From the NCBI GenBank assembly GCA_030867875.1, contig JAOWCC010000345.1, forward strand, positions 62,001-126,000: a stretch of 64,000 bases of DNA. The letters are read 5' to 3'. Source of the stretch: Actinernus sp. WN-2022 (taxonomy: Eukaryota > Cnidaria > Anthozoa > Actiniaria > Actinernidae). The notes beneath the pieces are model-generated. The model saw nothing but the letters and a program-made list of their open reading frames with translations, did not search any database and was not told the DNA's origin. A program made the translations under genes and the position numbers. Below are positions 4,966-59,554 of this stretch, piece by piece (the stretch's first letter is position 1; the number at the start of each line of letters is the position of its first letter).

Positions 4966-4974
4966 CACATTGAG

Positions 4975-33607: not shown

Positions 33608-33796
33608 ATTAGGCCTTTTAGATTCGAAATTTGCGAAAAGAAACGCATCTTAAAACGTTTCCATTTTTAATCTTTATCGATACCTTACACAGTCAAGCCG
33701 CAAAACAGTCAGTGATACTGGGGACAATTTCGAAATATCATGCCGCCGTACTCATACACGTACAAATCATATTAAATAGAATCGTACTGAAATCTA

Positions 33797-34140
33797 CGGT
33801 GGCCCAGAAGGGACAAGGCAACAAACAAAACAATTCTGCAAACAAGAAGCAATTGCACTGCCTCAAATATATCGCACTGCAAACAAAATATATCGCACTG
33901 CAAACAAAATATATCGCACTGCAAACTAAAAATGTATCGCACTGCAAACTAAAAATGTATCGCACTGCAAACTAAAATATATCGCACTGCAAACTAAAAA
34001 TGTACCGCACTGCAAACTAAAAAATATTGCACTGCAAACTAAAAATGTATCGCACTGCAAACTAAAAAAAAATGGAATGCAAGCTAAAAAATTATTGCAC
34101 TGCAAATAGAGCATAAAACCCTTGCGCACGCATGGTGCTT
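33797..34140 (+). repeat. Left terminal inverted repeat with ~22-bp array
   Basis: About eleven tandem units of CGCACTGCAAACTAAAAATG-like sequence at 33860-34110, inside the 60-bp terminus. They are likely transposase-binding sites (inference). Confidence 0.8.
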
Positions 34141-34192
34141 GTCAGCGGTTGTGAACAGCGGGTTCGAAGGTTTCCCGCCAAAACAATCCAAA

Positions 34193-35413
34193 ATGGCGTC
34201 CGGAAGTAGCGAACATGATTTTCATGAAGCTTTACCAAATGGTTCAGAAAGGGACTTAATCGAGCATTATTTCCATAAAGGATTTAGGTACAAGGAAATC
34301 ATACTGATGCTGGAAAAACATCATGAAATAAGCATGAATATAAGAACACTTAAACGAAGGTTAAATGATTACGGGCTCAAGCGTCGTGATGTGCCAGACG
34401 AAAATGTTCTGCAGTGCGTCAAGGAAATAATAGTTCGTGAAATAGCAAATGGACCGGATAGCCTGAATGGTTATCGTACTATGTGGCACATTTTGCGTAT
34501 TAGATATCATATCCATGTTCCTAGACGTATAGTGGAGTCTATTTTACGCGAGGTTGATTCTCGTGGTGTGGAAGAAAGGAAACGCCGTTCTTTCCATCGT
34601 CGTAGTTACGTTTCACCCGGGCCCAATTTTTGCTGGCACATAGATGGCTATGATAAACTTAAATCATTTGGATTTCCAATCCACGGATGTGTTGATGGTT
34701 TCAGCAGGAGAATTTTGTGGCTTGAAGTACAACGGTCAAACAAAAATCCTCAGGTAATTGTTCAGTACTTTTTCAATTATGTTAAAGCTGCACGAGGATG
34801 TCCAGTACGTGTGTACACCGACCTTGGAACTGAAAATGGACTTGTTGCTGCTATGCAGTGTTATTTCCGTGCTGATGGATTGGATGAATATGCAGGCATT
34901 AATGCTCACAAATATGTCCCAAGTACAAGTAACCAAAGAATCGAATGTTTCTGGTCTTCCTTTAGGAAGCAACGCGCAAGTTGGTGGATGGACTTTTTCA
35001 ATGACCTTCACGAATCTGACATTCTTGACCTCACTAGTGAGATTCATAAAGAGGCGTTGTGGTTTTGTTTTGCTGATTTGATCCAAAGCGACCTGGACAA
35101 AACAAAAGATTACTGGAATATACATCGAATCAGAAAGTCAAAGCATGCCACTGTCTCTGGTGTACCTGATGTGATGTATTTTTTGCCAGAGGATTATGGA
35201 CACGCAGATTGCTTGATTCCTGTCTCTTCACAAAAACTATCAGAAATGAAAGGCAAGTTACAAGCAGCTGAGTCAGTCCAAGAAAACCAAGTGTGGGAAG
35301 AGTATTTCCTGTATGTCATGGAGAAAAATGGGCTTTCTCAACCAGCTACTATCCAAGAAGCAGGCAAACTTTTCCAGAAGTTAGTCAAATTTGCCAAACC
35401 TAGTGTGCCATAA
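34193..35413 (+). CDS. Integrase-like DDE transposase (left copy)
   Basis: The frame gives 406 residues from the ATG at 34193 (context CAAAATGG). The frame is open further upstream without an ATG. Residues 22-64 form a helix-turn-helix-like segment (LIEHYFHKGFRYKEIILML...LKRRLNDYGLKRR). The catalytic core follows the rve/integrase pattern: D151 in CWHIDGYDK, D210 in VYTDLGTENG and E251 in SNQRIECFW, giving D-58-D-40-E. The core also contains CVDGFSRRILWLEV, typical of integrase folds. The role would be cutting and joining of element ends in the nucleus. It converges on the HECT gene, with 880 bp between stops. The same frame is intact in the other copy. It resembles Ginger/IS3EU-type eukaryotic integrase-like transposases, but the superfamily is unresolved. 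Confidence 0.85.
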   Translation: MASGSSEHDFHEALPNGSERDLIEHYFHKGFRYKEIILMLEKHHEISMNIRTLKRRLNDYGLKRRDVPDENVLQCVKEIIVREIANGPDSLNGYRTMWHILRIRYHIHVPRRIVESILREVDSRGVEERKRRSFHRRSYVSPGPNFCWHIDGYDKLKSFGFPIHGCVDGFSRRILWLEVQRSNKNPQVIVQYFFNYVKAARGCPVRVYTDLGTENGLVAAMQCYFRADGLDEYAGINAHKYVPSTSNQRIECFWSSFRKQRASWWMDFFNDLHESDILDLTSEIHKEALWFCFADLIQSDLDKTKDYWNIHRIRKSKHATVSGVPDVMYFLPEDYGHADCLIPVSSQKLSEMKGKLQAAESVQENQVWEEYFLYVMEKNGLSQPATIQEAGKLFQKLVKFAKPSVP

Positions 35414-36296
35414 ACATGTAGTGACTGTCTAGTATACAGTGAACTGGGATAGACTTTGAAACAAGGGTATACTTGAAAAGTAAAGGGAATACCGCCCCCC
35501 AAAAAAGGAGATTAATTAGAATATAAAGAAAGCTGAACGTATTTGCATTTGTTGAAATTGAAGCTTTATTTCTTTCAAAATTAGTTGAATTTTCAACATA
35601 ATTATTCACTACTTTATTATCCCAAAATTATACAAACTTGGGCAATACTTGGGGGGGGGGGGGGGGCACTTTACATAAACACGGAAGTTTTTGTATCTCC
35701 TATGCCAAGTACCCTCCAAAAAATGACATAATTTGGGGATAAGAAAGAACCGGTAGATGTAGTGAGTACAATGTAAACTAAACAATTAATGCAACATACA
35801 TAATTTAAACTTATATAGTGTAAATATTTCAAAACAGCTTGTAGACAGCAAACACTTTTCCATGCAAGAATCAAAATGTTGCTTACACATGTCTACTTAA
35901 AACGATAACTTAATTCATGTGTTTAACAAGTATTCACTAGTTTCACGAGGCAACTATGTTGGCAAGAAACAAGTTTCACAATGTCAAGCCTCACACTGAG
36001 CAGTTTCAGAACGAGGAAAACTAAATGTTTATTCTCCTGGGATTCAACATGCTGCTGCATCAAACTAGTGAATTATATGTGATGGACACTTGTCAGATAT
36101 AATCAGACATGAAAACTAGATGAACGTTAAACTAAGCCAATGATTATAAACCATATATTATATAATTATCATGGCACTGATGGTTAACTCTTTATGGAAA
36201 CATCCCAAACAATTAAATCAAGCCATCTTCAGAACAAAATGAAATTTTAAGCACAATGCATTTCACGTGCTTATAAGCCTTAGACTGATCCAAATC
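35414..36296. other. Spacer between convergent transposase and HECT genes
   Basis: AT-rich 3' region for both genes. It has a 16-bp G tract (35651-35666) and AATAAA-like signals on both strands. No gene seen. Confidence 0.6.
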
Positions 36297-38839
36297 CTAG
36301 GGCATTCCAAAGCCAAAGTCTTGGAATATGTCTTCCATGAGACGAAATGCAAATTCACCACTGTTGCAACTGTTAGAGTATCTACTGTTAACTGGAATTG
36401 TAATAGACATTGCACATGTATTTGCCTTAATTCTCCTGCCTTTCTCTGCTACTTCATGTTCAAAACATAGCTTGCCTCTAAAATTTGGGTACCTTGAACC
36501 ACTGCCAAACTGCAAAACATCACCTAGTGTGAGAACCTTATGCTTTGGACCTGTCTCATCCGTTATCCAGTTATAGCATGGCAGTACATCATATGTCAGC
36601 TTTCCTTTGCTAGCACTCTTCAAAAATTGATGCCATTTGTATACAATTTCTATTTCTACTTCAAGCCTTTCAGACTTAGTTGAAGGTGAATAAGAAGGCT
36701 CAAAGCAAGCTTTTACTTCTTCAACAGAAACTTCACAATGCACAAAGTGTTTGATACTCTCTTTTGGAAACTGGCATAAAATATCATAAACACCAAAACT
36801 GGCAAGACCCTTTCTAAAGCTGAAAATCTCTTCAGCAACACTACTTACAACAACGTGCTTAACACATGCACTCAGAAGCTCATCTTTGTCCTGTAAAGAC
36901 AAAACAGCTTTATTATAGCCCATATCAAAACGCTCTGGGAAATCACTTACATCCTGCAAAAATGATTCATCATTACAATTGTCAATATTAGTAAGCTGTA
37001 GAAGAAATTCACTGTCCCTTGGTACCTCCTCTAGAACTGGCTTTACTGGGATATCAAACAAAAAGTTTGCCAGTGATGGTGTAAAGAAATGAGGCCCAGG
37101 GCAACCATTTAAAAGAGCAATGGCAACTAACTTCCCTAACAATTCAAACTTCCCTTGACTTAAGGCATTTAAGTCATGCCTGAAGGTTATGTATGGGTAC
37201 TTACCACGAACTAGTTCACTAAAATCTGAAAGACTACGAAATAGCTCAGAGAAATATTCTCTCATAACCCCCCCTGTATCAACTGCATCTTCCCCTATAA
37301 ATTTCACTGTTACATGAGGATGAATATCTTCATCTTCTAAACATTCAAATGTCCTTTGTACAATGTTCTTTCTTGTCATTTCGATCACTGAAAACTTCTC
37401 TTTTGGGAAGGTCTTCAAAGTTCCTTCTACTGCTTCAGCAAGTGATGTGGGAGGCGATAGTGCCTTATCATCCAACTTTTGATCTTCTTTGCTTTGCTGT
37501 ATTGCAAATTGTAGAATTTCGTCATCAAAGTCATCAGGTGTATCTGCAATTGTGTAATAATGAAGTAATGTATTCTGTTTCAAACATTTAAAACACAATA
37601 TTTAACTTTGTTTTTCCCTATGTACCATACCAGCTACCGGCAGCATCAGTATTCATTATTTACAGTCAAACCAGCCTAGACCCTCACCCATTTGCTCTAG
37701 TGGAGTGACTGCAGAATACCCCACCACCATGCATTGTCCTGACCCTTTGTAGAACGTTGCATGTCACAATAGAAGGTATTGTTATTCAAATAAGTGGTGG
37801 GTATTCTGCAATCTAGCCCATTTGCCTACCTTGCCAAAAATAGCTTCCAATTTCTTGGTGGGAAATCCAAAACACATTCACGTGGGAAATTGATTTTTAG
37901 ACGAGCTTTTTAAAAAATATTAACCTCGCAGTCGCACCTGTTTAGCGGTTTGAATAAAATAATTTTGGCAGGCTACATCTCTAAAATAAAAGCAAACTAG
38001 TTATTACCTGGTATTTCAAATAGATCATCGCACGTGTTCAACTCTCTTGGAGGTTTACGACCATCTGGCGCACTGTTAGGAGTCTGAGAACTGTGAGGAG
38101 TGGACGAATTTGAGACACCTGGGAAAACAGCTGGAACGTGACTGAGCTGATAATGACCATTGATCGTTTACCAGTACCGCTGTATGAATTTGCGTTATCT
38201 GATTCTGACCCGAGTCGCCAAAAAACTCACTGCAAGGAATTAGGTAAAATGTCAGTCGCTTGTAGTCCTTTCCCTATGGCCATCCTTGTAAGCAGATAAT
38301 GAAAACAGTTCTTTGGTTCCTGGTATAAAATTTGCTTCTCTGAAGTCTGGATATAGTAACGTGTAGGGTACGGAATCGTCGAAATGTTTGGTGTCAAAGT
38401 CTGAGTGCTTTTCCACAGCTTTCAGAATAATATCCTCCTTGCTAGAGGAAGTCTTGACTTGAATTATTTGAGTCTTCCCACGACGAGGCTTAGTTATGCA
38501 ATCACTCTGGGAAGCAAGACTAACTTTAACTTCTACGTCTTTCTTTACGGAGTTCTTGTGGCAGATATTCAGCTTACTTTGCTTTTTCTTCTTAGACTTG
38601 GGTTAAAATCGTTCTTGTCTTGCTTTTTCTCGCTTTCGGGTAAATTCCTCAAACGTCAAAGTATTTATACTATCACTCGAAGACCCAGTGGCCGAAATTC
38701 GTCCAACTGTTCCTGATGAGGTCCCCGGTGTATTAGCATTGCTAGAAACAGTGCTGGGGCTTGCAGTCGCAAGTGCACGAGATATTTCTTCTCTCACAGT
38801 CTCGCGAATTTCATCCTTCCACCTACTTCCAGACGCCAT
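36297..38839 (-). pseudogene. UIM-HECT E3 ubiquitin ligase, left copy (exon 1 frame broken)
   Basis: Minus-strand counterpart of 53622-56158. Exon 2 (37543-36297) is open and encodes the same UIM and HECT domain. The intron lies at about 38007-37544 with the same GT/AG ends. Exon 1 (38839-38008) is 832 bp against 826 in the other copy. It has at least five small indels, for example an extra A near 38606 that gives a stop right after KREKARQERF, and extra or missing G and A bases near 38175-38290. The differences are nearly all 1-2 nt length changes. They may be assembly errors, so calling it a pseudogene is provisional. Confidence 0.75.
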
Positions 38840-38859
38840 TTTGGAATAGTTTTGGCGGG

Positions 38860-39269
38860 AAACCTTTGAGCCCGCTGTTCACTACCGCTCACAAGCATCG
38901 TGCGTGCGCAGTGGTTTTATGCTCTATTTGCAGTGCGATAATTTTTTAGTTTGCAGTGCGATAAACTTCTAGTTTGCAAGGCGATACATTTTTACCAATT
39001 TTAGCTTGCAGTGCGATACATTTTTAGTTTGCAGTGCAATATTTTTTAGTTTGCAGTGCGGTACATTTTTTAGTTTGCAGTGCGATATATTTTAGTTTGC
39101 AGTGCGGTACATTTTTAGTTTGCAGTGCGATATATTTTGTTTGCCAGTGCGATATATTTTGTTTGCAGTGCGATATATTTTGTTTGCAGTGCGATATTTT
39201 TGAGGCAGTGCAATTGCTTCTTGTTTGCAGAATTGTTTTGTTTGTTGCCTTGTCCCTTCTGGGCCACCG
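38860..39269 (-). repeat. Right terminal inverted repeat with ~22-bp array (left copy)
   Basis: Inverse of the left end: start region of the HECT gene, then about eleven ~22-bp units (TTTGCAGTGCGATAYATTTT-like, 38925-39205), then the terminus TTGTCCCTTCTGGGCCACCG. Confidence 0.8.
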
Positions 39270-39271
39270 TA

Positions 39272-39735
39272 CGTTTTCGTATAGCGTATTCACTTCATCT
39301 CTAGTTAAAGCTACCGAAGCGTTTGGCTTATTTCCTTTTCCTTTTTTCTTTAGCTCTTTCTGTTTGGAGAGAAGGACTTTCCTTGTCTTCTCAAATACGA
39401 GGTCATTCATTGATACTGGCGGAGTAGCTTTTCTTCTTCAGGTGTCGCTCAAAACTTGCTACTAAACTTCGGAGCGAAGAAGGCTCGTAGTCTTTCCCAT
39501 CTTTTGTCCTGACCGAAATGACAAACTCACACATGTATTCGTTCAGCTCCACAGCTGGAATTTCTTCAATTTTTCTAAGCTCATTCTTGGTTTCTACAAA
39601 CTTTTGAAGAAGCTTTATGTCTCGTTGTGTTTTTTGTACAGTGGCTTTGTTTTCTTGTCCTGAAATAAAATCAGCAACCGAACCGGCAGTCAACAAATCT
39701 TTCCGACATATTGAATTTTCATCTGGTGCAAGATA
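39272..39735 (-). pseudogene. Crypton-type tyrosine recombinase, 5' half
   Basis: The minus-strand frame has KIYLAPDENSICRKDLL, SVADFISGQENKATVQKTQ, a helical KLLQKFVETKNELRKI, then NEYMCEFVISVRTKDGKDY and SSLRSLVASFERHLKK. A 4-bp duplication near 39405 shifts the frame. It continues as DLVFEKTRKVLLSKQKEL and SVALTRDEVNTLYENV, ending at 39272 at the transposon. This is the N-terminal, SAM-like and linker part of Crypton/DUF3504-type recombinases. It begins after a possible splice acceptor (TTTACAG near 39755). The catalytic half is not next to it; it lies on the other strand at 58661. Confidence 0.8.
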
Positions 39736-39822
39736 TATTTTTTCTGTAAACGCCTAGGCTATGTGGTTGTACGCGTAACACGTAACAACCGAGTGAAGCA
39801 CTGGAAACAACATATTTCACAC

Positions 39823-41268
39823 AAGCAGTCTTTCAGACAGTCAGTGTAACAAGCAGTCACAGAGTCTGTAACAAGCTGAGTTACAGCTACAGAGTGTAAC
39901 AATCCGTCACAGAGTGTAACATTGAGCAGTCACAGAGTGTAACAAGCAGTCACAGCGTGTAACAAGCAGTCATGCACAGTGTAACAAGCAGTCACAGAGT
40001 GTAACAAGCAGTCGCAGAGTGTAACAAACAGGTCACAGAGTGTAACAATTAAGCAGTCACAGAGTGTAACAAACAGTCACAGAGTGTAACAAGCAAGTCA
40101 CAGAGTGTACCAAGCAGTCACAGCGTGTACCAAGCAGTCACAGAGTGTAACAAACAGTCACAAAGTGTAACAAGCCGTCACAGAGTGTAACAAGCCGTCA
40201 CACAGTGTAACAAACAGTCACAGAGTGTAACAAGCCGCCACAGAGTGTAACAAGCAGTCACAGAGTGTAACAATTAAGCCGTCACAGAGTTGTAACAAAC
40301 AGTCACAGAGTGTAACAAGCCGTCACAGAATGTAACAAGCAGTCACAGAGTGTAACAAGCCGTTACAGAGTGTAACAAGCCGCCACAGAGTGTAACAAGC
40401 TGTCACAGAGTGTAACAAGGCGTCACAAGAGCAGACTATAATACGACCTCCAGGTTACTTTTAGATACCCTAGGATGGGATAAAACTAGATGAACGAAGG
40501 GCTAAACGCAAAGCGGTCACTATGCACAAAATCCGAAATAATTTCGCGCCAACAGGCCTTACCGAGTTATTTACAACAGTTGGAAACTCGACTCATTATA
40601 ATTTAAGAGGATCTGACACAAAACTTTGCCTCCCTCAACCAAGAACTGAATTCCTGAAAAAAAGTTTATCATACAATGGTGCAAAAATATGGAATGGGCT
40701 TCCAGCCAAACTACGCGAAACAAAGTCTCTTGTTTCTTTTAAGAAACAAGTTGCGACCACCACTCTCCTTAGTGACTAATGTAATTATTTATTTATTTAT
40801 CTAGTAGTTATCATTTGATAGGATATCTTTTATAATTATTTAAATCATTTATGACCCAGAAAAATTGTAAATAAAACATAATTATAATATATTAGCTTAA
40901 GCCTAGATATATCGCAATTTTGTAATTAGAAATATTTTTTACCACACGGCTTCTATGGAAATCAGATTGTATCTGTTAGAATTCTCCGTGTTTTTAAATA
41001 AATAAAGTACGAAGTACAAAAGTGTAACAAGCAGTCACAGAGTGTAAACAAGCCAGTCGCAGAGTGTAACAAACAGTCACAAAGTGTAACAAGCCGTCAC
41101 AGAGTGTAACAAGCCGTCACAGAGTGTAACAAGCCGTCACAGAGTGTAACAAGGCAGTCACAGAGTGTAACAAACAGTCACAGAGTGTAACAAGCCGCCA
41201 CAGAGTGTAACAAGCAGTCACAGAGTGTAACAAACAGTCACAGAGTGTACCAAGCAATCACAGTATTT
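39823..41268 (+). repeat. ~20-bp satellite array (interrupted)
   Basis: Dozens of imperfect copies of ACAAGCAGTCACAGAGTGTA at 39823-40435 and 41021-41268, split by a retrotransposon fragment. There are no unique spacers. The same satellite occurs in opposite orientation at 49258-49885. Both outer edges carry TTTCAGACAGTCAGTGT. Confidence 0.9.
40463..41020 (+). mobile_element. 5'-truncated CR1/L2-like retrotransposon end inside the satellite
   Basis: The frame to 40779 has LDERRAKRKAVTMHKIRNN, LTELFTTVGNSTHYNLRGS and AKIWNGLPAKLRETKS, an RT ORF C-terminus. A 3' UTR ending in AAATAAATAAAGTACGAAGT follows. The array resumes immediately afterwards. Confidence 0.8.
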
Positions 41269-42301
41269 TTACCGCGCCGATGAACACCACAGTAGTGGGA
41301 GAGGGATGGAATTAGCCGGTTTTTTAAGGCGTATGCTAATTTTTAAGGCGTATGCATTAATTAGGGTGACGTCACGGTCCTATTGTCTTAGGTCATGCAT
41401 AAATTAATTAGGGCGTACGGCCCTTTTTGAAGGCGCTATGCTAATTTTTAAGGCGCGCTCATGAATAAAGTGGTGAGCTCATGAATAAAGTGGTGAGCTC
41501 ATGAATAAATACGGCGCGCTCATGAATAACAATTGTTCCTTTGGATGAGGTCATCGATCTATTCGGGCATGTTTGGTAAAAGCCTATTGTTTGGAGTCGT
41601 CTCTAAAACCAGGAGCGATCGGCCCTGAATACATTCGAAATTGAATAAAAAAAATAAAAAAAATACCTCGCAATATCTAAACCCCTTTGTAGCGTCAATA
41701 GTAAGAACAAACTACTCGTGATAGACTCTAAACTGTCTTTATTATTTTCCCTTTACAGTTAATAACTCATAAGGTAATTGTATACAAAATCCACTGTGAC
41801 TCATAAGATAATTGTATACAAAATCCGGTATGGTTTATTAGATCAACTCTGCTATCGTTCTTAGGGATTAGCGAAACTGAAGAGCTATTGTTTTTGAGAA
41901 AAACTCTTGTGATGCAAATTCTTCTCTAAAACTAACTGTAATTACCATACGAATAAAAACAAACCTCCAAAACAAAGTTTATTCAATCTCAAAAACACCA
42001 ATTTACAGTTCGTTTTCCTTATAGTCGCGGAGTTGATAACTTTCTTATTTCTCAGTTCTTGGGTTGATATAATGTACCGTGTTACAAGATTACACTGATT
42101 TATGTTTCATTGATTTTTTTCTTGTTGACAAATGCTGCTTCACTTGGATAAGCTAACAATTAGAAGGGGGAAACAAATAGTTTTTCATTCCCAGGCTACA
42201 CTCTATTCGTAAAGAATAAAACACGCGTTATCGTTGTTTTAGGTTATTTTCCAAACTAGACCGAAGAGATATTTACCATATCTGAAAGAATACCAAGACC
42301 T

Positions 42302-42517
42302 GTCTATCGTTTAAAGGACTATCATGGATAACTTTTAGAAGGAACATTGTACGAAGCCGAGTTACAGAGAGTCGAAAAGCAAGATGATTTCTACCGGGTA
42401 GAAAAAGTCTTTAAAAAGCGTAAACGGAAAGGCAGGATTGAATACCTTGTCCAGTGGAAGGGGTATCCCGAGAGTTTTAATACTTGGGTAGATGAAAGGG
42501 ATATAAAATACTTGTAA
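42302..42517 (+). pseudogene. Polinton integrase C-terminus with chromodomain
   Basis: The frame shows LYEAELQRVEKQDD, then a chromodomain: FYRVEKVFKK, RIEYLVQWKGYPESFNTWV, ending ERDIKYL and a stop at 42515. An in-frame stop lies just upstream of LLEGTLYE. The integrase core is missing. The right arm keeps only the last part of the same end (44506-44550, minus strand), next to about 90 bp not shared with the left arm. Confidence 0.75.
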
Positions 42518-43319
42518 TTAGATAGCTGATCGTTTTAATAAATTAATAAAGAAAACCTATTTATACTATCTGAAATGAGCCATCAATTAGCTGATTGGTT
42601 ATACACTCGAACCACTTTAGGTTTTTGTAATGTTGCTTCCTGTAAATAATACTTGTGCTCCTCTTGTGATAAGGGTATGTACTTGCGATAAATAATTGGA
42701 AAGTTTCACTAAATATTTTGATCCACAATTCGGCACCGGACAATTTTTACAAACGCGTTGACTCCTGTTAATCCTTTGAAGATCAAGATAAAACTAATTC
42801 AAAAAATAAAACATTGTGAATTTTATCGTAATTTGTCAGGATAAACAGGACAAAAAGGACAAACGAATAGAGACGTGTTCATTTCCATAACACATTTATT
42901 GGAAGTTTGTACATTTTAAGTAAGAATAAAATAACTGTTTACATTAAGCTTGAAAATACTATTTACGATAATATAACTATTTTACAGCACTTGGTTCTTC
43001 GTTTATATCTCTAGAGGTAAAGTGGTCAGTCCATCTGCTAACACGTTGCGCTTAGGGTAAAAATAAGAAAACCCGGCCCTTACTTGTTGATAAGTATACA
43101 TAGTGTTGTTGACAACACGAAACCCCTTATTGATACCCGAGCAACACATTTAGATAGTTTTCTTTATCGATCTCATTACATCTCTTATGAACTCCCTTAC
43201 GACTAAACTTATCCGAAGCTCCAAAGCAATAATAGGGTTTACTACCCAACGCCCGCCGCCCGTCAAAGACCGTCAACGCCCGCCGCCCGTCAACGCCCGC
43301 CGCCCGTCAAAGACCGTCA

Positions 43320-43645
43320 ACGCCCGTCGCCTCCTCCTCCTCCTCCTCCCTCCTCCTCCTCCTCCTCCTCCTCCTCCTCCTCCTCCCTCCTCCTCCTCCT
43401 CCTCCCTCCTCCTCCTCCTCCTCCTCCCTCCACCTCCACCTCATCGCTACCCCAAAGCTTCCTTATGTTACAGAAAATATCTGGCCAATCGAAAGTGTAA
43501 CATAAGGAAGCTTTGGGGTAGCGATGAGGAGGAGGCGGAGGGAGGAGGAGGAGGAGGAGGGAGGAGGAGGAGGGAGGAGGAGGGAGGAGGGAGGAGGAGG
43601 AGGAGGAGGAGGAGGGAGGAGGAGGAGGAGGAGGAGGCGGTGGGC
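43320..43645. repeat. (TCC)n / (GGA)n inverted core
   Basis: Polypyrimidine TCC repeats (about 43330-43425) and polypurine GGA repeats (about 43525-43640) mirror each other across the palindrome centre. They are bordered by ACGCCCGCCGCCCGTCAA-type repeats (43245-43325) and their complements (43645-43760). The long frame of Pro, Ser, Leu, Arg and Glu runs here is a repeat translation. Confidence 0.9.
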
Positions 43646-45870: not shown

Positions 45871-45872
45871 AG

Positions 45873-48180: not shown

Positions 48181-48189
48181 ATTGTTCCG

Positions 48190-48840: not shown

Positions 48841-48866
48841 GATGACTTAAGTAATATATAAAAAAA

Positions 48867-48988
48867 CGAGAGCTAGTGTTTTACCAGGGGATCCAAACAC
48901 CGAGAAAGATGAAAGCACGAGGCCGCTTCGGCCGAGTACTTTTATTATTTCGAGGTGTTTGGATTCCCTGGTGAAACACGAAGCTTGA
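48867..48988. repeat. Hairpin MITE
   Basis: Arms GTGTTTTACCAGGGGATCC and GGATTCCCTGGTGAAACAC enclose a GC-rich centre with GGCCGCTTCGGCC. Confidence 0.8.
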
Positions 48989-49017
48989 GTTAAATTTAGT
49001 ATACAGGTTATTGTCAA

Positions 49018-49257
49018 TTGCTGGCTAGATTACCGGTATCAATACATGTTGAGACTAGAGTTTCAATTCAGTTTATAAGGATTTCCGAGGTTATCTTTGA
49101 TAATCGAAGAAATATAGGAACTCATGCAAGGTTGTATATAGGCACTCGTGAATGGTGGAAAAGAGTCAACTCGATCTCACAGCGATATCTTATGGCAGAA
49201 TTAAACAAATATTATGGAAGATTGTGTTATGATGATAATTACATTGAGCCGGCCAAC
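49018..49257 (+). mobile_element. Possible RT linker fragment of a non-LTR element
   Basis: The frame shows TREWWKRVNSISQR and AELNKYYGRLCYDDNYIEP, which resembles the endonuclease-RT linker of L2/CR1-like ORFs. It is cut off where the satellite begins. Confidence 0.45.
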
Positions 49258-49885
49258 ATTACACTCTGTGACCGCTTGTTACACTGTGTGATGGCTTGTT
49301 ACACTCTGTGACGGTTTGTTACACTCTGTGACTGCTTGTTACACTCTGTGACTGCTTGTTACACACTGTGACTGCTTGTTACACTTTGTAACTGTTTGTT
49401 ACACTCTGTGACGGCTTGTTACACTCTGTGACGGTTTGTTACACTGTGTGATGGCTTGTTACACTCTGCGACTGTTTGTTACACTCTGTGACTGCTTGTT
49501 ACGCTCTGTGACTGCTTGTTACACTCTGTGACGGCTTGTTACACTTTGTAACTGTTTGTTACACTCTGTGACGGCTTGTTACACTCTGTGACGGTTTGTT
49601 ACACTCTGTGACTGCTTGTTACACTTTGTGACTGCTTGTTACACTCTGTGACGGTTTGTTACGCTCTGTGACTGCTTGTTACACTCTGTGACGGTTTGTT
49701 ACGATCTGTGACTGCTTGTTACACTCTGTGACTGCTTGTTACACTCTGTGACTGCTTGGTACACTCTGTGACTGCTTGTTATATACTCTGTGACTGCTTG
49801 GTACACTCTGTGGCTGATTGTTACACTCTGTGACTGCTTGGTACACTCTGTGACTGCTTGTTATATACTCTGTGACTGCTTCTAA
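49258..49885 (-). repeat. ~20-bp satellite array, opposite orientation
   Basis: About 30 imperfect copies of TACACTCTGTGACTGCTTGT, the complement of the 39.8-41.3 kb satellite. The outer edge reads CACTGACTGTCTGAAAGA. Confidence 0.9.
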
Positions 49886-50120
49886 CACTGACTGTCTGAA
49901 AGATGGACTGCATGCTTTTGTTGGACAGTAAAGATAACGAAGGAATGCTATAGCTGTTGAAGGATTATGATCTTTAGGAATGTAGAGAACTAAAGTTACA
50001 GTGTGACACGTCACAAAACATATCCACCATTTGCCCAAAAATATATCTTGTATGGTATATGAATTTTGATCAAAGCCAAAGCGCGGCCAGCTTTCGCGCC
50101 AAGGATGACGTAGTTTCCCG

Positions 50121-50211
50121 TACGATCATTTTTCACTAGTGAAGAAACATCGTTCGTCCAATCAGAAGCCGCGAACGATGTTTTTTCACTAGTGAAATTT
50201 CATCGTTCGCG
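50121..50211. repeat. Nested hairpin repeat
   Basis: Two arms, each with TTTTTCACTAGTGAA flanked by CGATG/CATCG words, inverted around CCAATCAGAAGCC. The downstream 50268-50320 ends in a (TTATC)n run, a typical retroposon tail. 50321-50859 shows no gene. Confidence 0.7.
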
Positions 50212-50859
50212 TCGCTTATTGGCTCTGCCTAAAAACAGAACGACTGTTTCATCACTGTCATTTCTGTGAATAAATCTCAGTACTTATAGAATAAATAAAG
50301 TTATCTTATCTTATCTTATCAGTGGGAGAATGCTCATCGTTTTTCTTTTTTCATGATTGTGAGCCTCCTGAATCAGAAACCATCACTAGTGGGATAGTAT
50401 TACTTCACATTTTTGGCGAGTTTCACCAGAAAGTGATTGTTGAATTTTGAGGTAACTCCATCCCAACATGCTCCTCAAATTTATCAAATTAACTTGCCTT
50501 TCGGTGAAGAGTTAGAGGTGCATTTTAACGTATTTCTTCTTCAGCGTATAGTGATTCTTGAAAACAGTTGTGTAACACAAAACAGCTTTGTAACACAGCC
50601 CGGTCACGTTAGGTCATAATGTTGACCAATACTGAGATCAATACTCGGATCGGGAGTATATCGAGTGTTGTTGCTTTTCCAGTTCGGTATTTCCATATCC
50701 TAGAGATTGAAAATGTGTGCAAACAGTATTCCACCACATTTATTTATAAACTTTGATCAAGTGAGTCATAGCATGCAATCAGCCAGCTGCGGAATGCAAA
50801 AAAATAGGAGAATATTTGCAACTTTATACCTGGTACGCGTGTGCATTTCAACACATCTC

Positions 50860-52008
50860 ATTGGCTGACTTTATCTGTTCGGGAGGGCGCTTCATTGTCA
50901 TTCCGAAATTCTTAATAGGTGTGGCAGAGGCCTTGACGAAAGCATGACATTTTGCCAATCAGTGATAGAAAATTTTAGCCAAGCTTTTTCTCAGAATCTT
51001 AGCTTTCACTGTTGACACCGAAACTTCTAGGGACTATAAACTGCATCCGAAAATCTCCGGTGCTAACCAGGTGTTTCGAAATACTCCGCATTCCCTAACA
51101 TTGGTTGAGCATGTGACCTGAAAATGTTTTGATGTTTTGCGATATTCGAGAAATCGAAAAGCGGAGAAATTTACCGATTTTTACGAAACATTTTAGGCGA
51201 GTATATTCATTCTTTTCTTTATTCCGTCGATGTTCCGAAAATTGTAGCCCAAAATATCTGTACTCGCAAATTTAAGAAAATTCCGAAAATTTTAGCCTAT
51301 ACGTTTTGCAATTACAGAAAAGTATAGAGATTTACAAATTATTATGACTTAGGGTAAAGCATCAAGCAACTTACCTTTTCTTCCAACCCCTTAGTCTTTT
51401 TGTAGCTTCTTCTTTAATTTGGCTCAAAAGGCAGGGACACCCATCTCCCACTTTCGGCTAAATATATGTTCGGATGAAAAAGGTTGTCTATATTGGAAAA
51501 CGTGGGCTAAAGCTTTCGGAATTTTGGCCTAAATTTGCGAGTTGAGATATTTTGGGCTACAATTTTCGGAACATCGGCGGAATAAAGAAAAAAAATATTT
51601 TGCTCGCCTAAACTTTTCGTAAAAATCAGTAAATTTCTACGCTTTTCGATTTCTCGAATATCGCAAAACAATCAAAACATTTTCAGGTCACATGTTAGTG
51701 AATGCGGAGTATTTCGAAACACCTGGTTAACACCTGAGATTTTCGGAAGCAGTTTTTTCCTCTGTCTGATTCGACAACCAATTTACAGTCCCTAGAAGTT
51801 TCGGTGTACTCAGTGACAGCTAAGATTCTGAGAAAAAAGTTGCCTAAAATGTTTTGTCACTGATCGACAAAATGTCAGAATCGTATGTTTTAATTCGTCA
51901 AGGCCTCTGCCACACCTAAGAATTTCGGAATGACAATGAAAGCGCCCTAAAATATTAGATACTGCCCTAGTTCCCCTAGGTTCACCGAACAGATAAAGTC
52001 TTAGGCCA
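50860..52008. repeat. 1.1-kb fold-back element
   Basis: Arms of about 450 bp (50860-51330 and 51490-52008) are inverted, diverged copies sharing GACTTTATCTGTTCGG, GGTGTGGCAGAGGCCTTGACG, GGTGTTTCGAAATACTCCGC and CGATTTCTCGAATATCGC with their complements. No coding region. Each arm has small private indels, so it is not recent. Confidence 0.8.
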
Positions 52009-52360
52009 TCCAAAATCTTTTTTCCGTTTCTCATCGTCCGACCGACCCATTTTTGTGGCTTTTTGTAAAAATAAAAACAAATTGGGGGGAGGGGTTGGGG
52101 TGAAGAAACCCTAGAGAAAAGAAGACTCCGGAATTGTCTACTGCCTTTATTTGTAATTCCATGTTTGTAGCGTATACGGACAACGACATCGATGGTTTCG
52201 TCGTCCATCTTGGTTTGTAACCTCGCCTGTGTAACCGCGCCTTATTAGTTCCAGTCTCTCCGCGCATTTTTTATTATCTTTTTTTTTTCTCACCCGACCG
52301 ACCGACCCAATTTTTGAAAACCCCACCGATGAGAAACGGGAAAAAAATAGGATGGCCTTA
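52002..52360. mobile_element. Small TIR element
   Basis: Ends TTAGGCCATCC / GGATGGCCTTA, with inner TTTTTTCCGTTTCTCATCG and its complement. The minus-strand frame inside has GYKPRWTTKPSMSLSVYATN; no family recognised. It abuts the fold-back on the left. Confidence 0.6.
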
Positions 52361-52800
52361 CCAGCGCAGTTTGAAATTCATTTAGTTAGCGTTTAAAAGT
52401 GCTTTTAATAGAAGTAACACAATGGCATATTAAAGCATTTTAGCGAAAATTGTCGGGGAAAAAAGAGCGGAAACGACCCTAGAAGAGCTCAGAGGTATGA
52501 AACCACAACTGAAACATTGTAGGGTGAAGTCGTTTATTTATTTGTCTAACATACATGTTTTGGAAGGATTTATAATAGGGGGTTATTTAAGCGATAATAC
52601 ACAAATCACGAGATTGGGCTGCCTGTGGCAAGGGTCCGCCATTTTGATTCAAAAGACGCGCATGCTCAGTCGTTTGACCGCGGTGTCTGTCTCGATGGGG
52701 GTATCATCTTATTCAGATCTCATGCGACACCGGAATAGGTATGGTAACGAGGTTCCAAATATTGCAAAATTGGAGTCGGTAAGAAATGTCTTAAGGTTGG
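52361..52800. other. Intergenic, no feature recognised
   Basis: The 115-codon frame at 52497-52844 shows no recognisable domain. Confidence 0.4.
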
Positions 52801-52975
52801 TTTTCACGAGCGACGCAAGCACAAGAGTCCTTATTTCACAGTGAAAGCGAGCTCGACGCAAGCGCAAGCACAAGGATCATTTTTTTCCTTTTCCTTGTGC
52901 TTGTGCTTATGCTTGCGTTCGCGTTGTACTAGTGAAAACGGAAGCAACGCAAGCACAAGGAGAATTACTAGAAGC
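52801..52975. repeat. Hairpin MITE with GACGCAAGCGCAAGCACAAG arms
   Basis: GACGCAAGCGCAAGCACAAG is inverted at TCCTTGTGCTTGTGCTTATG, with outer TTTTCAC / GTGAAAA borders. Confidence 0.75.
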
Positions 52976-53089
52976 CTGAAGAGAATGACTACAAGCAATA
53001 CTAGCTGTTCGAGCACGACGGCTGCCATATTGGATTATTGGCCGCTACACAAAGAGACAAGTGACCAGCGAGTCTTGCGCTTATTGCAC

Positions 53090-53191
53090 GGTTCGTTTTC
53101 ACCCCGGGGGGGGGGGGGGGGACTCCCATATAAAAGGGGTAGGGATGCTCGTCGGACATTTTCGATTTGACCCCCAAGAGGTACTAAAATG
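53090..53191. repeat. Poly-G interspersed repeat
   Basis: CCCC then a 16-bp G run (53106-53121), then ACTCCCATATAAAAGGGGTA and GACCCCCAAGAGGTACT, up to the transposon. Confidence 0.6.
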
Positions 53192-53193
53192 TA

Positions 53194-53610
53194 CGGTGGC
53201 CCAGAAGGGACAAGGCAACAAACAAAACAATTCTGCAAACAAGAAGCAATTGCACTGCCTCAAAAATATCGCACTGCAAACAAAATATATCGCACTGCAA
53301 ACAAAATATATCGCACTGCAAACAAAATATATCGCACTGCAAACTAAAAATGTACCGCACTGCAAACTAAAATATATCGCACTGCAAACTAAAAATGTAC
53401 CGCACTGCAAACTAAAAAATATTGCACTGCAAACTAAAAATGTATCGCACTGCAAGCTAAAATTGGTAAAAATGTATCGCCTTGCAAACTAGAAGTTTAT
53501 CGCACTGCAAACTAAAAAATTATCGCACTGCAAATAGAGCATAAAACCACTGCGCACGCACGATGCTTGTGAGCGGTAGTGAACAGCGGGCTCAAAGGTT
53601 TCCCGCCAAA
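53194..53610 (+). promoter_or_regulatory. TIR and presumed HECT promoter (right copy)
   Basis: Terminus, ~22-bp repeat array, then GAGCATAAAACC and CGCACG, the 5' leader, and GGTTTCCCGCCAAAAC just before the ATG. Nearly the same sequence precedes the transposase ATG at the other end, so both genes should use the same promoter elements (inference). Confidence 0.6.
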
Positions 53611-53621
53611 ACTATTCCAAA

Positions 53622-56158
53622 ATGGCGTCTGGAAGTAGGTGGAAGGATGAAATTCGCGAGACTGTGAGAGAAGAAATATCTCGTGCACTTGCGACTGCAA
53701 GCCCCAGCACTGTTTCTAGCAATGCTAATACACCGGGGACCTCATCAGGAACAGTTGGACGAATTTCGGCCACTGGGTCTTCGAGTGATAGTATAAATAC
53801 TTTGACGTTTGAGGAATTTTACCGAAAGCGAGAAAAAGCAAGACAAGACGATTTTAACCCAAAGTCTAAGAAGAAAAAGCAAAGTAAGCTGAATATCTGC
53901 CACAAGAACTCCGTAAAGAAAGACGTAGAAGTTAAAGTTAGTCTTGCTTCCCAGAGTGATTGCATAACTAAGCCTCGTCGTGGGAAGACTCAAATAATTC
54001 AAGTCAAGACTTCCTCTAGCAAGGAGGATATTATTCTGAAAGCTGTGGAAAAGCACTCAGACTTTGACCAAACATTCGACGATTCCGTACCCTACACGTT
54101 ACTATATCCAGACTTCAGAGAAGCAAATTTTATACCAGGAACCAAAGAACTGTTTTCATTATCTGCTTACAAGGATGCCATAGGAAAGGACTACAAGCGA
54201 CTGACATTTTACCTAATTCCTTGCAGTGAGTTTTTTGGCGACTCGGGGTCAGAATCAGATAACGCAAATTCATACAGCGGTACTGGTAACGATCAATGGT
54301 CATTATCAGCTCAGTCACGTTCCAGCTGTTTTCCAGGTGTCTCAAATTCGTCCACTCCTCACAGTTCTCAGACTCCTAACAGTGCGCCAGATGGTCGTAA
54401 ACCTCCAAGAGAGTTGAACACGTGCGATGATCTATTTGAAATACCAGGTAATAACTAGTTTGCTTTTATTTTAGAGATGTAGCCTGCCAAAATTATTTTA
54501 TTCAAACCGCTAAACAGGTGCGACTGCGAGGTTAATATTTTTTAAAAAGCTCGTCTAAAAATCAATTTCCCACGTGAATGTGTTTTGGATTTCCCACCAA
54601 GAAATTGGAAGCTATTTTTGGCAAGGTAGGCAAATGGGCTAGATTGCAGAATACCCACCACTTATTTGAATAACAATACCTTCTATTGTGACATGCAACG
54701 TTCTACAAAGGGTCAGGACAATGCATGGTGGTGGGGTATTCTGCAGTCACTCCACTAGAGCAAATGGGTGAGGGTCTAGGCTGGTTTGACTGTAAATAAT
54801 GAATACTGATGCTGCCGGTAGCTGGTATGGTACATAGGGAAAAACAAAGTTAAATATTGTGTTTTAAATGTTTGAAACAGAATACATTACTTCATTATTA
54901 CACAATTGCAGATACACCTGATGACTTTGATGACGAAATTCTACAATTTGCAATACAGCAAAGCAAAGAAGATCAAAAGTTGGATGATAAGGCACTATCG
55001 CCTCCCACATCACTTGCTGAAGCAGTAGAAGGAACTTTGAAGACCTTCCCAAAAGAGAAGTTTTCAGTGATCGAAATGACAAGAAAGAACATTGTACAAA
55101 GGACATTTGAATGTTTAGAAGATGAAGATATTCATCCTCATGTAACAGTGAAATTTATAGGGGAAGATGCAGTTGATACAGGGGGGGTTATGAGAGAATA
55201 TTTCTCTGAGCTATTTCGTAGTCTTTCAGATTTTAGTGAACTAGTTCGTGGTAAGTACCCATACATAACCTTCAGGCATGACTTAAATGCCTTAAGTCAA
55301 GGGAAGTTTGAATTGTTAGGGAAGTTAGTTGCCATTGCTCTTTTAAATGGTTGCCCTGGGCCTCATTTCTTTACACCATCACTGGCAAACTTTTTGTTTG
55401 ATATCCCAGTAAAGCCAGTTCTAGAGGAGGTACCAAGGGACAGTGAATTTCTTCTACAGCTTACTAATATTGACAATTGTAATGATGAATCATTTTTGCA
55501 GGATGTAAGTGATTTCCCAGAGCGTTTTGATATGGGCTATAATAAAGCTGTTTTGTCTTTACAGGACAAAGATGAGCTTCTGAGTGCATGTGTTAAGCAC
55601 GTTGTTGTAAGTAGTGTTGCTGAAGAGATTTTCAGCTTTAGAAAGGGTCTTGCCAGTTTTGGTGTTTATGATATTTTATGCCAGTTTCCAAAAGAGAGTA
55701 TCAAACACTTTGTGCATTGTGAAGTTTCTGTTGAAGAAGTAAAAGCTTGCTTTGAGCCTTCTTATTCACCTTCAACTAAGTCTGAAAGGCTTGAAGTAGA
55801 AATAGAAATTGTATACAAATGGCATCAATTTTTGAAGAGTGCTAGCAAAGGAAAGCTGACATATGATGTACTGCCATGCTATAACTGGATAACGGATGAG
55901 ACAGGTCCAAAGCATAAGGTTCTCACACTAGGTGATGTTTTGCAGTTTGGCAGTGGTTCAAGGTACCCAAATTTTAGAGGCAAGCTATGTTTTGAACATG
56001 AAGTAGCAGAGAAAGGCAGGAGAATTAAGGCAAATACATGTGCAATGTCTATTACAATTCCAGTTAACAGTAGATACTCTAACAGTTGCAACAGTGGTGA
56101 ATTTGCATTTCGTCTCATGGAAGACATATTCCAAGACTTTGGCTTTGGAATGCCCTAG
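53622..56158 (+). CDS. UIM-HECT E3 ubiquitin ligase, G2E3-like (right copy, intact)
   Basis: Two exons. Exon 1, 53622-54447, starts at ATG in CAAAATGG. The intron, 54448-54911, runs CCAG|GTAATAAC to ATTGCAG|ATAC. Exon 2 is 54912-56158. The phases match and give 690 residues. Residues 1-275 are Ser/Thr-rich and basic (PKSKKKKQSK) with LTFEEFYRKREKA and a folded-looking YTLLYPDFREANF segment. A ubiquitin-interacting motif (DDEILQFAIQQSKED) sits near 282-296. The HECT domain follows, with FIGEDAVDTGGVMREYF near 357-373. The catalytic Cys is likely C652 in IKANTCAMSI, and the tail is FGFGMP. It would move ubiquitin from an E2 to a target. It resembles the expanded G2/M-phase E3-like proteins of fish and invertebrates. 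Its place inside TIRs, convergent with a transposase, indicates that it is carried by the transposon. Confidence 0.85.
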
Positions 56159-57041
56159 GATTTGGATCAGTCTAAGGCTTATAAGCACGTGAAATGCATT
56201 GTGCTTAAAATTTCATTTTGTTCTGAAGATGGCTTGATTTAATTGTTTGGGATGTTTCCATAAAGAGTTAACCATCAGTGCCATGATAATTATATAATAT
56301 ATGGTTTATAATCATTGGCTTAGTTTAACGTTCATCTAGTTTTCATGTCTGATTATATCTGACAAGTGTCCATCACATATAATTCACTAGTTTGATGCAG
56401 CAGCATGTTGAATCCCAGGAGAATAAACATTTAGTTTTCCTCGTTCTGAAACTGCTCAGTGTGAGGCTTGACATTGTGAAACTTGTTTCTTGCCAACATA
56501 GTTGCCTCGTGAAACTAGTGAATACTTGTTAAACACATGAATTAAGTTATCGTTTTAAGTAGACATGTGTAAGCAACATTTTGATTCTTGCATGGAAAAG
56601 TGTTTGCTGTCTACAAGCTGTTTTGAAATATTTACACTATATAAGTTTAAATTATGTATGTTGCATTAATTGTTTAGTTTACATTGTACTCACTACATCT
56701 ACCGGTTCTTTCTTATCCCCAAATTATGTCATTTTTTGGAGGGTACTTGGCATAGGAGATACAAAAACTTCCGTGTTTATGTAAAGTGCCCCCCCCCCCC
56801 CCCCAAGTATTGCCCAAGTTTGTATAATTTTGGGATAATAAAGTAGTGAATAATTATGTTGAAAATTCAACTAATTTTGAAAGAAATAAAGCTTCAATTT
56901 CAACAAATGCAAATACGTTCAGCTTTCTTTATATTCTAATTAATCTCCTTTTTTGGGGGGCGGTATTCCCTTTACTTTTCAAGTATACCCTTGTTTCAAA
57001 GTCTATCCCAGTTCACTGTATACTAGACAGTCACTACATGT

Positions 57042-58262
57042 TTATGGCACACTAGGTTTGGCAAATTTGACTAACTTCTGGAAAAGTTTGCCTGCTTCTT
57101 GGATAGTAGCTGGTTGAGAAAGCCCATTTTTCTCCATGACATACAGGAAATACTCTTCCCACACTTGGTTTTCTTGGACTGACTCAGCTGCTTGTAACTT
57201 GCCTTTCATTTCTGATAGTTTTTGTGAAGAGACAGGAATCAAGCAATCTGCGTGTCCATAATCCTCTGGCAAAAAATACATCACATCAGGTACACCAGAG
57301 ACAGTGGCATGCTTTGACTTTCTGATTCGATGTATATTCCAGTAATCTTTTGTTTTGTCCAGGTCGCTTTGGATCAAATCAGCAAAACAAAACCACAACG
57401 CCTCTTTATGAATCTCACTAGTGAGGTCAAGAATGTCAGATTCGTGAAGGTCATTGAAAAAGTCCATCCACCAACTTGCGCGTTGCTTCCTAAAGGAAGA
57501 CCAGAAACATTCGATTCTTTGGTTACTTGTACTTGGGACATATTTGTGAGCATTAATGCCTGCATATTCATCCAATCCATCAGCACGGAAATAACACTGC
57601 ATAGCAGCAACAAGTCCATTTTCAGTTCCAAGGTCGGTGTACACACGTACTGGACATCCTCGTGCAGCTTTAACATAATTGAAAAAGTACTGAACAATTA
57701 CCTGAGGATTTTTGTTTGACCGTTGTACTTCAAGCCACAAAATTCTCCTGCTGAAACCATCAACACATCCGTGGATTGGAAATCCAAATGATTTAAGTTT
57801 ATCATAGCCATCTATGTGCCAGCAAAAATTGGGCCCGGGTGAAACGTAACTACGACGATGGAAAGAACGGCGTTTCCTTTCTTCCACACCACGAGAATCA
57901 ACCTCGCGTAAAATAGACTCCACTATACGTCTAGGAACATGGATATGATATCTAATACGCAAAATGTGCCACATAGTACGATAACCATTCAGGCTATCCG
58001 GTCCATTTGCTATTTCACGAACTATTATTTCCTTGACGCACTGCAGAACATTTTCGTCTGGCACATCACGACGCTTGAGCCCGTAATCATTTAACCTTCG
58101 TTTAAGTGTTCTTATATTCATGCTTATTTCATGATGTTTTTCCAGCATCAGTATGATTTCCTTGTACCTAAATCCTTTATGGAAATAATGCTCGATTAAG
58201 TCCCTTTCTGAACCATTTGGTAAAGCTTCATGAAAATCATGTTCGCTACTTCCGGACGCCAT
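57042..58262 (-). CDS. Integrase-like DDE transposase (right copy)
   Basis: Same 406-residue protein as 34193-35413, on the minus strand, with the ATG at 58262. It keeps D151, D210 and E251 and the N-terminal helix-turn-helix-like segment. With both copies intact and identical, either could supply transposase. The spacer to the HECT gene (56159-57041) holds a 16-bp C tract at 56789-56804 and no gene. Confidence 0.85.
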   Translation of the reverse strand: MASGSSEHDFHEALPNGSERDLIEHYFHKGFRYKEIILMLEKHHEISMNIRTLKRRLNDYGLKRRDVPDENVLQCVKEIIVREIANGPDSLNGYRTMWHILRIRYHIHVPRRIVESILREVDSRGVEERKRRSFHRRSYVSPGPNFCWHIDGYDKLKSFGFPIHGCVDGFSRRILWLEVQRSNKNPQVIVQYFFNYVKAARGCPVRVYTDLGTENGLVAAMQCYFRADGLDEYAGINAHKYVPSTSNQRIECFWSSFRKQRASWWMDFFNDLHESDILDLTSEIHKEALWFCFADLIQSDLDKTKDYWNIHRIRKSKHATVSGVPDVMYFLPEDYGHADCLIPVSSQKLSEMKGKLQAAESVQENQVWEEYFLYVMEKNGLSQPATIQEAGKLFQKLVKFAKPSVP

Positions 58263-58660
58263 TTTGGATTGTTTTGGCGGGAAACCTTCGAACCCGCTGT
58301 TCACAACCGCTGACAAGCACCATGCGTGCGCAAGGGTTTTATGCTCTATTTGCAGTGCAATAATTTTTTAGCTTGCATTCCATTTTTTTTTAGTTTGCAG
58401 TGCGATACATTTTTAGTTTGCAGTGCAATATTTTTTAGTTTGCAGTGCGGTACATTTTTAGTTTGCAGTGCGATATATTTTAGTTTGCAGTGCGATACAT
58501 TTTTAGTTTGCAGTGCGATACATTTTTAGTTTGCAGTGCGATATATTTTGTTTGCAGTGCGATATATTTTGTTTGCAGTGCGATATATTTGAGGCAGTGC
58601 AATTGCTTCTTGTTTGCAGAATTGTTTTGTTTGTTGCCTTGTCCCTTCTGGGCCACCGTA

Positions 58661-59554
58661 AAAAAGGCCTTCTTGGTACACGAAATCCTGCAGCGCTTCT
58701 GAACACACTCTGGTTAAATAACACCATACATTTTGGACTCAGAGGCTGTAAAGAAAATAGAGATATGTGCTGGGGTGATGTAAAGTTGAAGAAAACGGAC
58801 GGCAAGGAGTTTTTGGAGTTTAATGAAAGACAAACGAAAACAAGAACCGGTTCAGACTGCCGTGATGTCAGGGCAATGCCGCCTAAAATGTTTGCTACCG
58901 ACGGATCAGAAAAAGATCCTGTAGTGGTCTACAAGCTCTTCGCTCAGAAGAGACCTGAGAAAATGAAGGAAGACGATTCTCCTTTTTATCTAGCTGTCAA
59001 TAACAACTTAAAGGCAGATTCGCTTGAAACGAAAGACTGGTTCAAGTGTAGTCCTGTTGGCATAAACAAACTTAAACAGTCTCATGAAAACTATGGCTCA
59101 AAAAGCAGGAATCAACAACGACCGCCTCCGAAATCACAGCAGTAGAAAGACTATGATTCAAACTATAAGCGATAATGATATTCCACCGACTCATATCGCT
59201 CAACTATCAGGACATAAAAACTTAAAGAGTATAGAAAACTACAGCAAAGTGTCAACAAAACAGCAAATGCACATGTCCAAAGTTCTTAGCACTGCTATAG
59301 CTGGTACAGCAACAAAGACATCCTCGTACGAAACTGCTAATATTAATCCAACCATATCTCCATCCACTTCTGACTCACAGCAATCTATGGCTTTATTCAG
59401 CGGGGCTGTCATTCAAGGTGGCCATTTTCCCATCAACATAAACACAGTTAATCAATCACCAAAGTTCACACTAGAGGAATCTAACTTAGCTACTGCTGAA
59501 GCATCGACACGATGGAAGAGAGTGAGGCCTTTGGTCGACAGTGATGATGAGTGA
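58661..59554 (+). pseudogene. Crypton-type tyrosine recombinase, catalytic half
   Basis: Starts directly at the transposon end with GLLGTRNPAALLNTLWLNN. It continues IHFGLRGCKENRDM and NERQTKTRTG, which probably includes the first catalytic Arg. A frameshift near 59080 leads to AQKAGINNDRLRNHSSRKT (HxxR box) and QLSGHKNLKSIENYSKV (second His and the Tyr nucleophile). A low-complexity C-terminal tail ends DSDDE. These are the tyrosine-recombinase catalytic boxes in the Crypton/DUF3504 arrangement. The missing 5' half is at 39272-39735 on the minus strand. A polyadenylation-like AATAAA is at about 59690. Confidence 0.8.

Follow-up and report, generated by a model that had tools for sequence, protein, structure and literature searches.

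Complete families of IS3EU transposons are described as always ending in TA..TA and as usually generating target duplications of 6 bp (PMC10045372), and a set of fungal IS3EU elements is reported to have TAYGG..CCRTA ends, 6-bp duplications and extra genes beside the transposase, including an alpha-kinase gene that runs opposite to it (PMC12730594). Cryptons, in turn, encode recombinases with an R-H-R-Y catalytic tetrad; no terminal repeats are reported for animal Cryptons, and medaka Cryptons interrupted by piggyBac or RTE inserts are listed in Table 2 of the same source (PMC3212892). Rearrangement between transposon copies is documented for Galileo in Drosophila, where inversion 2z3 of Drosophila buzzatii is bounded by GalileoN copies in opposite orientation, with exchanged target duplications and with both copies chimeric (PMC2775673). 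Both nested insertion and transposon-mediated inversion are known kinds of event. Here, we analyse a stretch of sea anemone DNA in which elements resembling the first two systems meet in an arrangement resembling the third, namely 64,000 nucleotides of Actinernus sp. WN-2022 (contig JAOWCC010000345.1, positions 62,001 to 126,000), hereafter the window.

Two nearly identical 5.47-kb IS3EU-like transposons lie in opposite orientation in this 64-kb window, and a Crypton-type tyrosine recombinase gene is split into two halves that occupy opposite strands and abut one copy each (Table 1). Flipping the segment 39272-53191 places both halves on one strand around a single element. An earlier reading of the same DNA from its letters alone (the first-pass annotation) had noticed this arrangement, and our alignments and homology searches bear it out. 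The sequence indicates that one element almost certainly inserted into one Crypton gene. As for the exchange of flanks that now separates the two halves, it seems slightly likelier to have been made by the assembler than by the chromosome, a reading that we hold tentatively and with nearly even confidence.

Insertion of a transposon into a Crypton-type gene

The extent of the gene was established by searching the window with the homologues P0003 and P0001 (tblastn, E up to 0.01). The 5' half was matched on the minus strand only (39684-39276 with residues 9-144 of P0003, 39687-39276 with residues 8-144 of P0001) and the 3' half on the plus strand only (58660-59551, residues 144-437), and these two queries retrieved no other Crypton match in the window at this threshold. 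Full-length homologues have about 437 aa and contain DUF3504 and Phage_integrase domains, both of which are recovered in the catalytic half (PF12012 DUF3504, E 1.3e-17; PF00589 Phage_integrase, E 6.7e-7). The reading starts with an ATG at 39709 and is open throughout both halves, with the exception of three one-base insertions, the first some seven codons in, the second at 39411 and the third close to 59073. Identity to P0003 is 82 and 89% in the stretches of the 5' half and 86 and 82% in those of the 3' half, and divergence from the homologues is similar in both halves. There are 393 relatives, and the best named ones among the 120 of them that are listed belong to Porites lobata and Porites lutea (83%). 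Putative residues of the catalytic tetrad, placed by eye, lie in the motifs LRGCKE, NHSSR and ENYSKVS. As in the animal Cryptons and DUF3504 genes that carry inserts, a recombinase gene is interrupted here by another transposon, whereas the interrupter is in this case IS3EU-like and the halves lie apart in the assembly.

After the flip, the joined gene reads ...CTATACG AAAACG (transposon) AAAAAG GCCTTCTTGG..., and in 58 of the 60 best homologues aligned a single residue stands between the two sides of the join (mostly YE-K-GLLG or near), the exceptions being P0018, which is deleted there, and P0051, which has no coverage. From the in-frame stretches 39410-39272 and 58661-59073 we built ten models of the join and compared their scores with a profile made from the 50 best homologues. 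The collapse of six bases was the best of the ten (364.9 bits with the right copy kept, 363.2 with the left), being in frame and of native length. The other in-frame joins reached 358.0 bits (only TA removed), 359.4 (three-base collapse) and 351.8 (nine-base collapse), while those breaking the frame fell to 275-279 bits for the collapse of four, five, seven or eight bases and to 275.6 when one TA was kept. Duplications of 3, 4, 5, 7, 8 or 9 bases all score below that of six. The margins between in-frame models are small (351.8-359.4 versus 364.9), and the six-base duplication is favoured by its agreement in length with the homologues together with the published 6-bp habit of these transposons. 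The first-pass annotation had regarded the TA at each side as a signature of the flanks and had described the halves as continuing in one frame. As a target duplication, TA is ruled out, since keeping it breaks the frame and contradicts the rule for IS3EU termini; it is the element's own terminus. The single frame holds at the join itself; elsewhere the one-base insertions interrupt it, twice within the 5' half and once within the 3' half.

The putative duplication, AAAACG and AAAAAG, matches at five of six positions, which 1.3% of random 6-mers from the window do as well. Taken alone, this match is weak evidence, and it is the protein join that decides. In our judgement, two fragments that are exact complements at one codon of about 437 aa, both at transposon edges, are not expected by chance. 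The protein join, the spacing in the homologues, the similar divergence of both halves and the 5/6 duplication together sustain the insertion that had been proposed from the letters alone. On this well-supported reading, an IS3EU-like transposon with a HECT-ligase-like gene inserted into the coding part of a single Crypton-type gene for a tyrosine recombinase, with AAAAAG as the putative 6-bp target duplication, of which one copy would now read AAAACG. The assembled sequence holds the element a second time in nearly identical form, and the flanks of the two copies appear to be swapped in the present order, so that the Crypton halves lie on opposite strands.

Differences between the two copies

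The copies agree in every letter of their initial 4326 bp and of their final 127 bp, and all their differences are confined to 1024 of 5469 bp. Under the loosest of six gap scorings, this stretch holds no substitution and 13 insertion or deletion (indel) events (14 gap columns), 12 of which lengthen or shorten a run of one base and one of which does so to a GT repeat; the other five scorings give 11 indel events together with two substitutions at the neighbouring positions 38640-38641. A MAFFT global alignment of the same stretch displays 13 apparent substitutions and nine indels, one of the latter being an end artefact at the border. If the events were spread evenly, the probability of such clustering would be about 3.5e-10 for 13 events and 1.9e-9 for 12. 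Eleven of the 13 indels fall inside the 291-aa open frame of the right copy, whose counterpart in the left copy has in-frame stops in all three frames (81.5% translated identity), and the indels within this frame sum to +6, so that both of its ends keep one frame. Mutation is expected to yield mostly substitutions, and an excess of run-length indels is typical of an unpolished long-read consensus. With 11-13 run-length indels versus 0-2 substitutions in one kilobase, natural divergence is judged an unlikely source of these differences, and the stretch 38121-39144 is likely a low-quality consensus, resembling consensus error. This error-like zone adjoins the Crypton 5' half, itself with two one-base insertions in about 440 bp. 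We also considered gene conversion of the identical 4.3 kb, which is unneeded if the differences between the copies are consensus errors.

For zero substitutions, the upper 95% bound on the divergence of the copies is 0.055%. If rates between 1e-9 and 4e-9 per site and year are assumed, this limits the age to about 0.27 to 0.07 million years; with two substitutions, the bound approximately doubles (hand estimate). The first-pass annotation had seen a datable order of events here, which the copies do not support; the upper bound dates the order only as "recent" and fits two assembled versions of one sequence too.

Origin of the present arrangement

The second pair of flanks, formed by the outer flank of the left copy (L-out) and the inner flank of the right copy (R-in), behaves differently from the Crypton pair. 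They read GAAATC and, once the segment is flipped, CATTTT, and agree at two of six positions, a level reached by 55% of random window 6-mers. As now assembled, the right copy has flanks (AAAATG/AAAAAG) that match at five of six, which 1.3% of random 6-mers equal and which is as good as the Crypton pair, and the left copy has flanks that match at one of six. The exchanged duplication that Galileo inversions show at both sites has a near match at the Crypton (5/6) and fails at the other site (2/6). The lack of a duplication at this second site leaves a history of two insertions and one inversion incomplete, and it means that a flank was lost or that more than two copies took part, either in the genome or in the assembly.

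Just before the transposon, in the same orientation, positions 33784-33794 (GTACTGAAATC) and 53181-53191 (GTACTAAAATG) agree at 9 of 11 letters, which 0.017% of random window 11-mers equal (uncorrected for the comparisons made); this likeness between L-out and R-in could be target preference or chance. The R-in flank (53106-53191) consists of a G-run followed by GACTCCCATATAAAAGGGGTAGGGATGCTCGTCGG and resembles an abundant coral repeat. No second copy of this G-rich repeat was found in the window beyond the query, nor in viral_contigs and genome_contigs, neither of them a collection of eukaryotic DNA. Between the flipped segment and both outer flanks, the comparison yielded a single 31-bp match.

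In the history that we tentatively prefer, the assembler would have taken a wrong path through a tangle of at least two such copies. This is favoured by the 11-13 indels, which change the length of single-base runs or of the GT repeat, versus 0-2 substitutions, all within 1024 of 5469 bp, by the two further one-base insertions in the adjacent Crypton 5' half, and by the second flank pair without a duplication, as expected if L-out and R-in derive from different loci. That one of the two joins in question lies by a stretch with poor support is no more than circumstantial evidence of misjoining, and several observations weigh on the other side. The contig crosses both copies without N, and so presumably has some read support. 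The window has four further pairs of near-identical repeats, whose members differ over 1.1-2.8 kb by 0-2 substitutions and 1-2 indels per pair, so the assembly is not generally poor. Runs gain and lose bases naturally too. The in-phase total of +6, which chance would give about once in three times, speaks against pure noise. Finally, a simple wrong join of two copies itself predicts the absent L-out/R-in duplication, so that a third copy must be invoked. A real inversion, in which the segment 39272-53191 would have been turned round after the Crypton insertion by homologous (ectopic) recombination of two IS3EU-like copies lying in inverted orientation, is quite possible, although we hold it with somewhat less confidence. 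The first-pass annotation had taken such recombination as the simplest history, and the opposite orientation and near-identity of the copies do permit it; likewise, the Crypton flanks with their near-match 6-bp duplication are exchanged between the copies, and the mechanism is the one documented for Galileo (PMC2775673). The duplication that it requires at the second site is nevertheless absent, an error-like cluster lies beside the breakpoint, and chimerism of the copies is not assessable because only 0-2 substitutions distinguish them. The locus thus resembles inversion 2z3 in that opposite copies bound the segment and a near-match duplication is exchanged at one site, and differs in the lack of an exchanged duplication at the other, in the chimerism not being assessable, in its size of only 13.9 kb and in that the present order alone is read. 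A Galileo-type inversion is not assigned here, since the copies agree with it in orientation but show the exchanged duplication at one of two sites only.

In a further history, alternative transposition, the IS3EU transposase would have joined the ends of different or sister copies and re-inserted them, causing an inversion with two identical copies at its borders and perhaps the deletion of one flank; such a deletion would account for the missing duplication. Such events are known for Ac/Ds (PMC8225341), and the copies are almost identical, as the hybrid-element model described for Galileo predicts (PMC2775673). In its simple form, however, this process needs a fresh duplication shared by L-out and R-in, which is absent, and no use of mixed ends by IS3EU came up, although no search was aimed at it; we regard it as improbable. 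A broader scenario, in which an active family of HECT-carrying IS3EU-like elements spreading in cnidarians has already made a real and very recent Crypton-splitting inversion, the second-site duplication being lost or never made and pointing to a transposase-driven event instead of ordinary recombination, appears unlikely. It is hardly credible, in turn, that the locus has no shared history and consists of two unrelated Crypton fragments beside two IS3EU-like copies. This would make AAAATG/AAAAAG, which also matches at five of six positions, the right copy's own duplication, but the two fragments complement each other exactly at a single codon and have diverged to a similar degree from their homologues, and no Crypton match extends to the R-in flank. 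All histories but this last one retain the insertion into the Crypton, and the weights given to them here are matters of judgement. If the wrong join that we prefer is the cause, the locus illustrates how a broken frame and target duplications can expose wrong joins at near-identical inverted repeats. If the inversion is real, it would be very young and sequence-resolved, with complete transposons of a little-studied superfamily at both borders and a split gene that records the earlier order.

Structure and genes of the transposon

The two copies have the same terminal letters (start TACGGTGGCCC, end GGGCCACCGTA), with subterminal repeats of about 22-23 bp located inward of the ends. The sequence TACGGTGG...CCACCGTA in both copies follows the IS3EU/GingerRoot rule for termini (TA..TA, TAYGG..CCRTA). 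Together with the integrase core and the passenger gene on the opposite strand, these TACGG..CCGTA ends fit an IS3EU-like element, an assignment made on sequence features. The element shares with IS3EU/GingerRoot its ends, an integrase-core transposase and a passenger opposite to the transposase, together with a putative 6-bp duplication (5/6 at the Crypton, 2/6 at the other pair of flanks). In contrast, its passenger has a HECT domain, whereas alpha-kinase and TET/JBP genes are described in the TET-bearing fungal families (PMC12730594). No further copy of the transposon end was retrieved from viral_contigs or genome_contigs, neither being a collection of eukaryotic DNA.

Table 1. Positions in the window of the two IS3EU-like copies, their genes and flanks, and the Crypton-type gene.
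Feature	Positions	Strand	Details
Left IS3EU-like copy, TACGG...CCGTA	33795..39271	+	5477 bp; from borders and alignment to right copy
Right IS3EU-like copy, reversed	53192..58660	-	5469 bp; from borders and alignment to left copy
Segment to flip for reuniting the Crypton halves	39272..53191		13.9 kb
Crypton-type recombinase, 5' half	39272..39709	-	ATG (MSERFVD) to residue 144; two one-base insertions; from tblastn, translation and homologue starts
Crypton-type recombinase, catalytic (3') half	58661..59554	+	one one-base insertion near 59073; from Pfam and tblastn
L-in flank AAAACG, putative half of the Crypton 6-bp duplication	39272..39277	-	
R-out flank AAAAAG, putative other half of the duplication	58661..58666	+	
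L-out flank GAAATC	33789..33794	+	
R-in flank AAAATG	53186..53191	+	
Stretch of left copy with every difference from right copy	38121..39144		11-13 run-length indels, 0-2 substitutions
Integrase-type transposase frame, left copy	34088..35413	+	441 aa stop to stop; Pfam PF24764 rva_4, E 8.1e-34; D-58-D-40-E
Integrase frame, right copy	57042..58367	-	translation identical to left copy
HECT-domain exon, left copy	36297..37601	-	434 aa; Pfam PF00632, E 4.7e-7
HECT-domain exon, right copy	54854..56158	+	translation identical to left copy
Upstream open frame, right copy	53583..54458	+	291 aa; no Pfam match

In each copy, the integrase and the HECT protein are encoded on opposite strands. The integrase displays a DDE triad, in which the first D and the E are invariant and the second D is nearly so in a 12-sequence alignment. 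It has 937 homologues, and the best 120 of them include named relatives in Stylophora pistillata, Porites evermanni, Dendronephthya gigantea and Actinia tenebrosa. Like the Porites matches of the Crypton gene, these relatives point to a probable cnidarian host. A search for relatives in viral_contigs gave 44 pattern matches, none of them confirmed, and comparison to PDB sequences gave no meaningful match (best E 0.28). The HECT exon has 37 homologues, one of which is annotated as a G2/M phase-specific E3 ubiquitin ligase, and the upstream frame of the right copy is probably the first exon of this gene. The longest contig listed is of 456147 bases for both the integrase relative P0136 and the HECT relative P0262, a coincidence suggesting linkage of the integrase and HECT genes in a further species as well. 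Searches of a library of papers for IS3EU together with HECT, or IS3EU with coral, found no paper, their reach being limited to those pairings. The combination of an integrase and a HECT-ligase-like gene in one DNA transposon merits description whichever history holds.

Other features of the window

To the left of the first copy lies a 19.5-kb low-GC block (13758-33249) whose strong GC skew switches sign at about 23 kb. It contains direct repeats of 2.85 kb (13758-16603 and 20799-23637, 99.6% identical) and repeated units about 2.1-2.65 kb apart, and on either side of the block stands one of a pair of direct repeats, some 350 bp long and 87% alike (13417-13763 and 33259-33607). The open frames at 17172-19892 look, by eye only, like a Penelope-like reverse transcriptase; three of them had no match in Pfam, and the one at 17869-19041 had none in the PDB. 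The right edge of the block is marked by AACCCTAACCCT at 33249-33260, and a second short match to these letters occurs at 46074-46085, within the flipped segment.

The same segment includes a stretch of about 10 kb (approximately 39825-49911, with ends placed by eye) between inverted arrays of about 600 bp made of the 20-bp unit AAGCAGTCACAGAGTGTAAC; the stretch begins slightly more than 100 bp upstream of the Crypton ATG and is perhaps another large transposon with subterminal arrays. An inverted repeat is located at 42467-44548. Its arms, 42467-43299 and 43708-44548, measure about 0.83 kb each and match at 97-98% in three pieces, and some stretches in and around it give poly-P, poly-R and poly-E on translation. 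Finally, overlapping plus-strand frames at 4804-8113 resemble one long frameshifted protein, which would represent either a pseudogene or further consensus errors.

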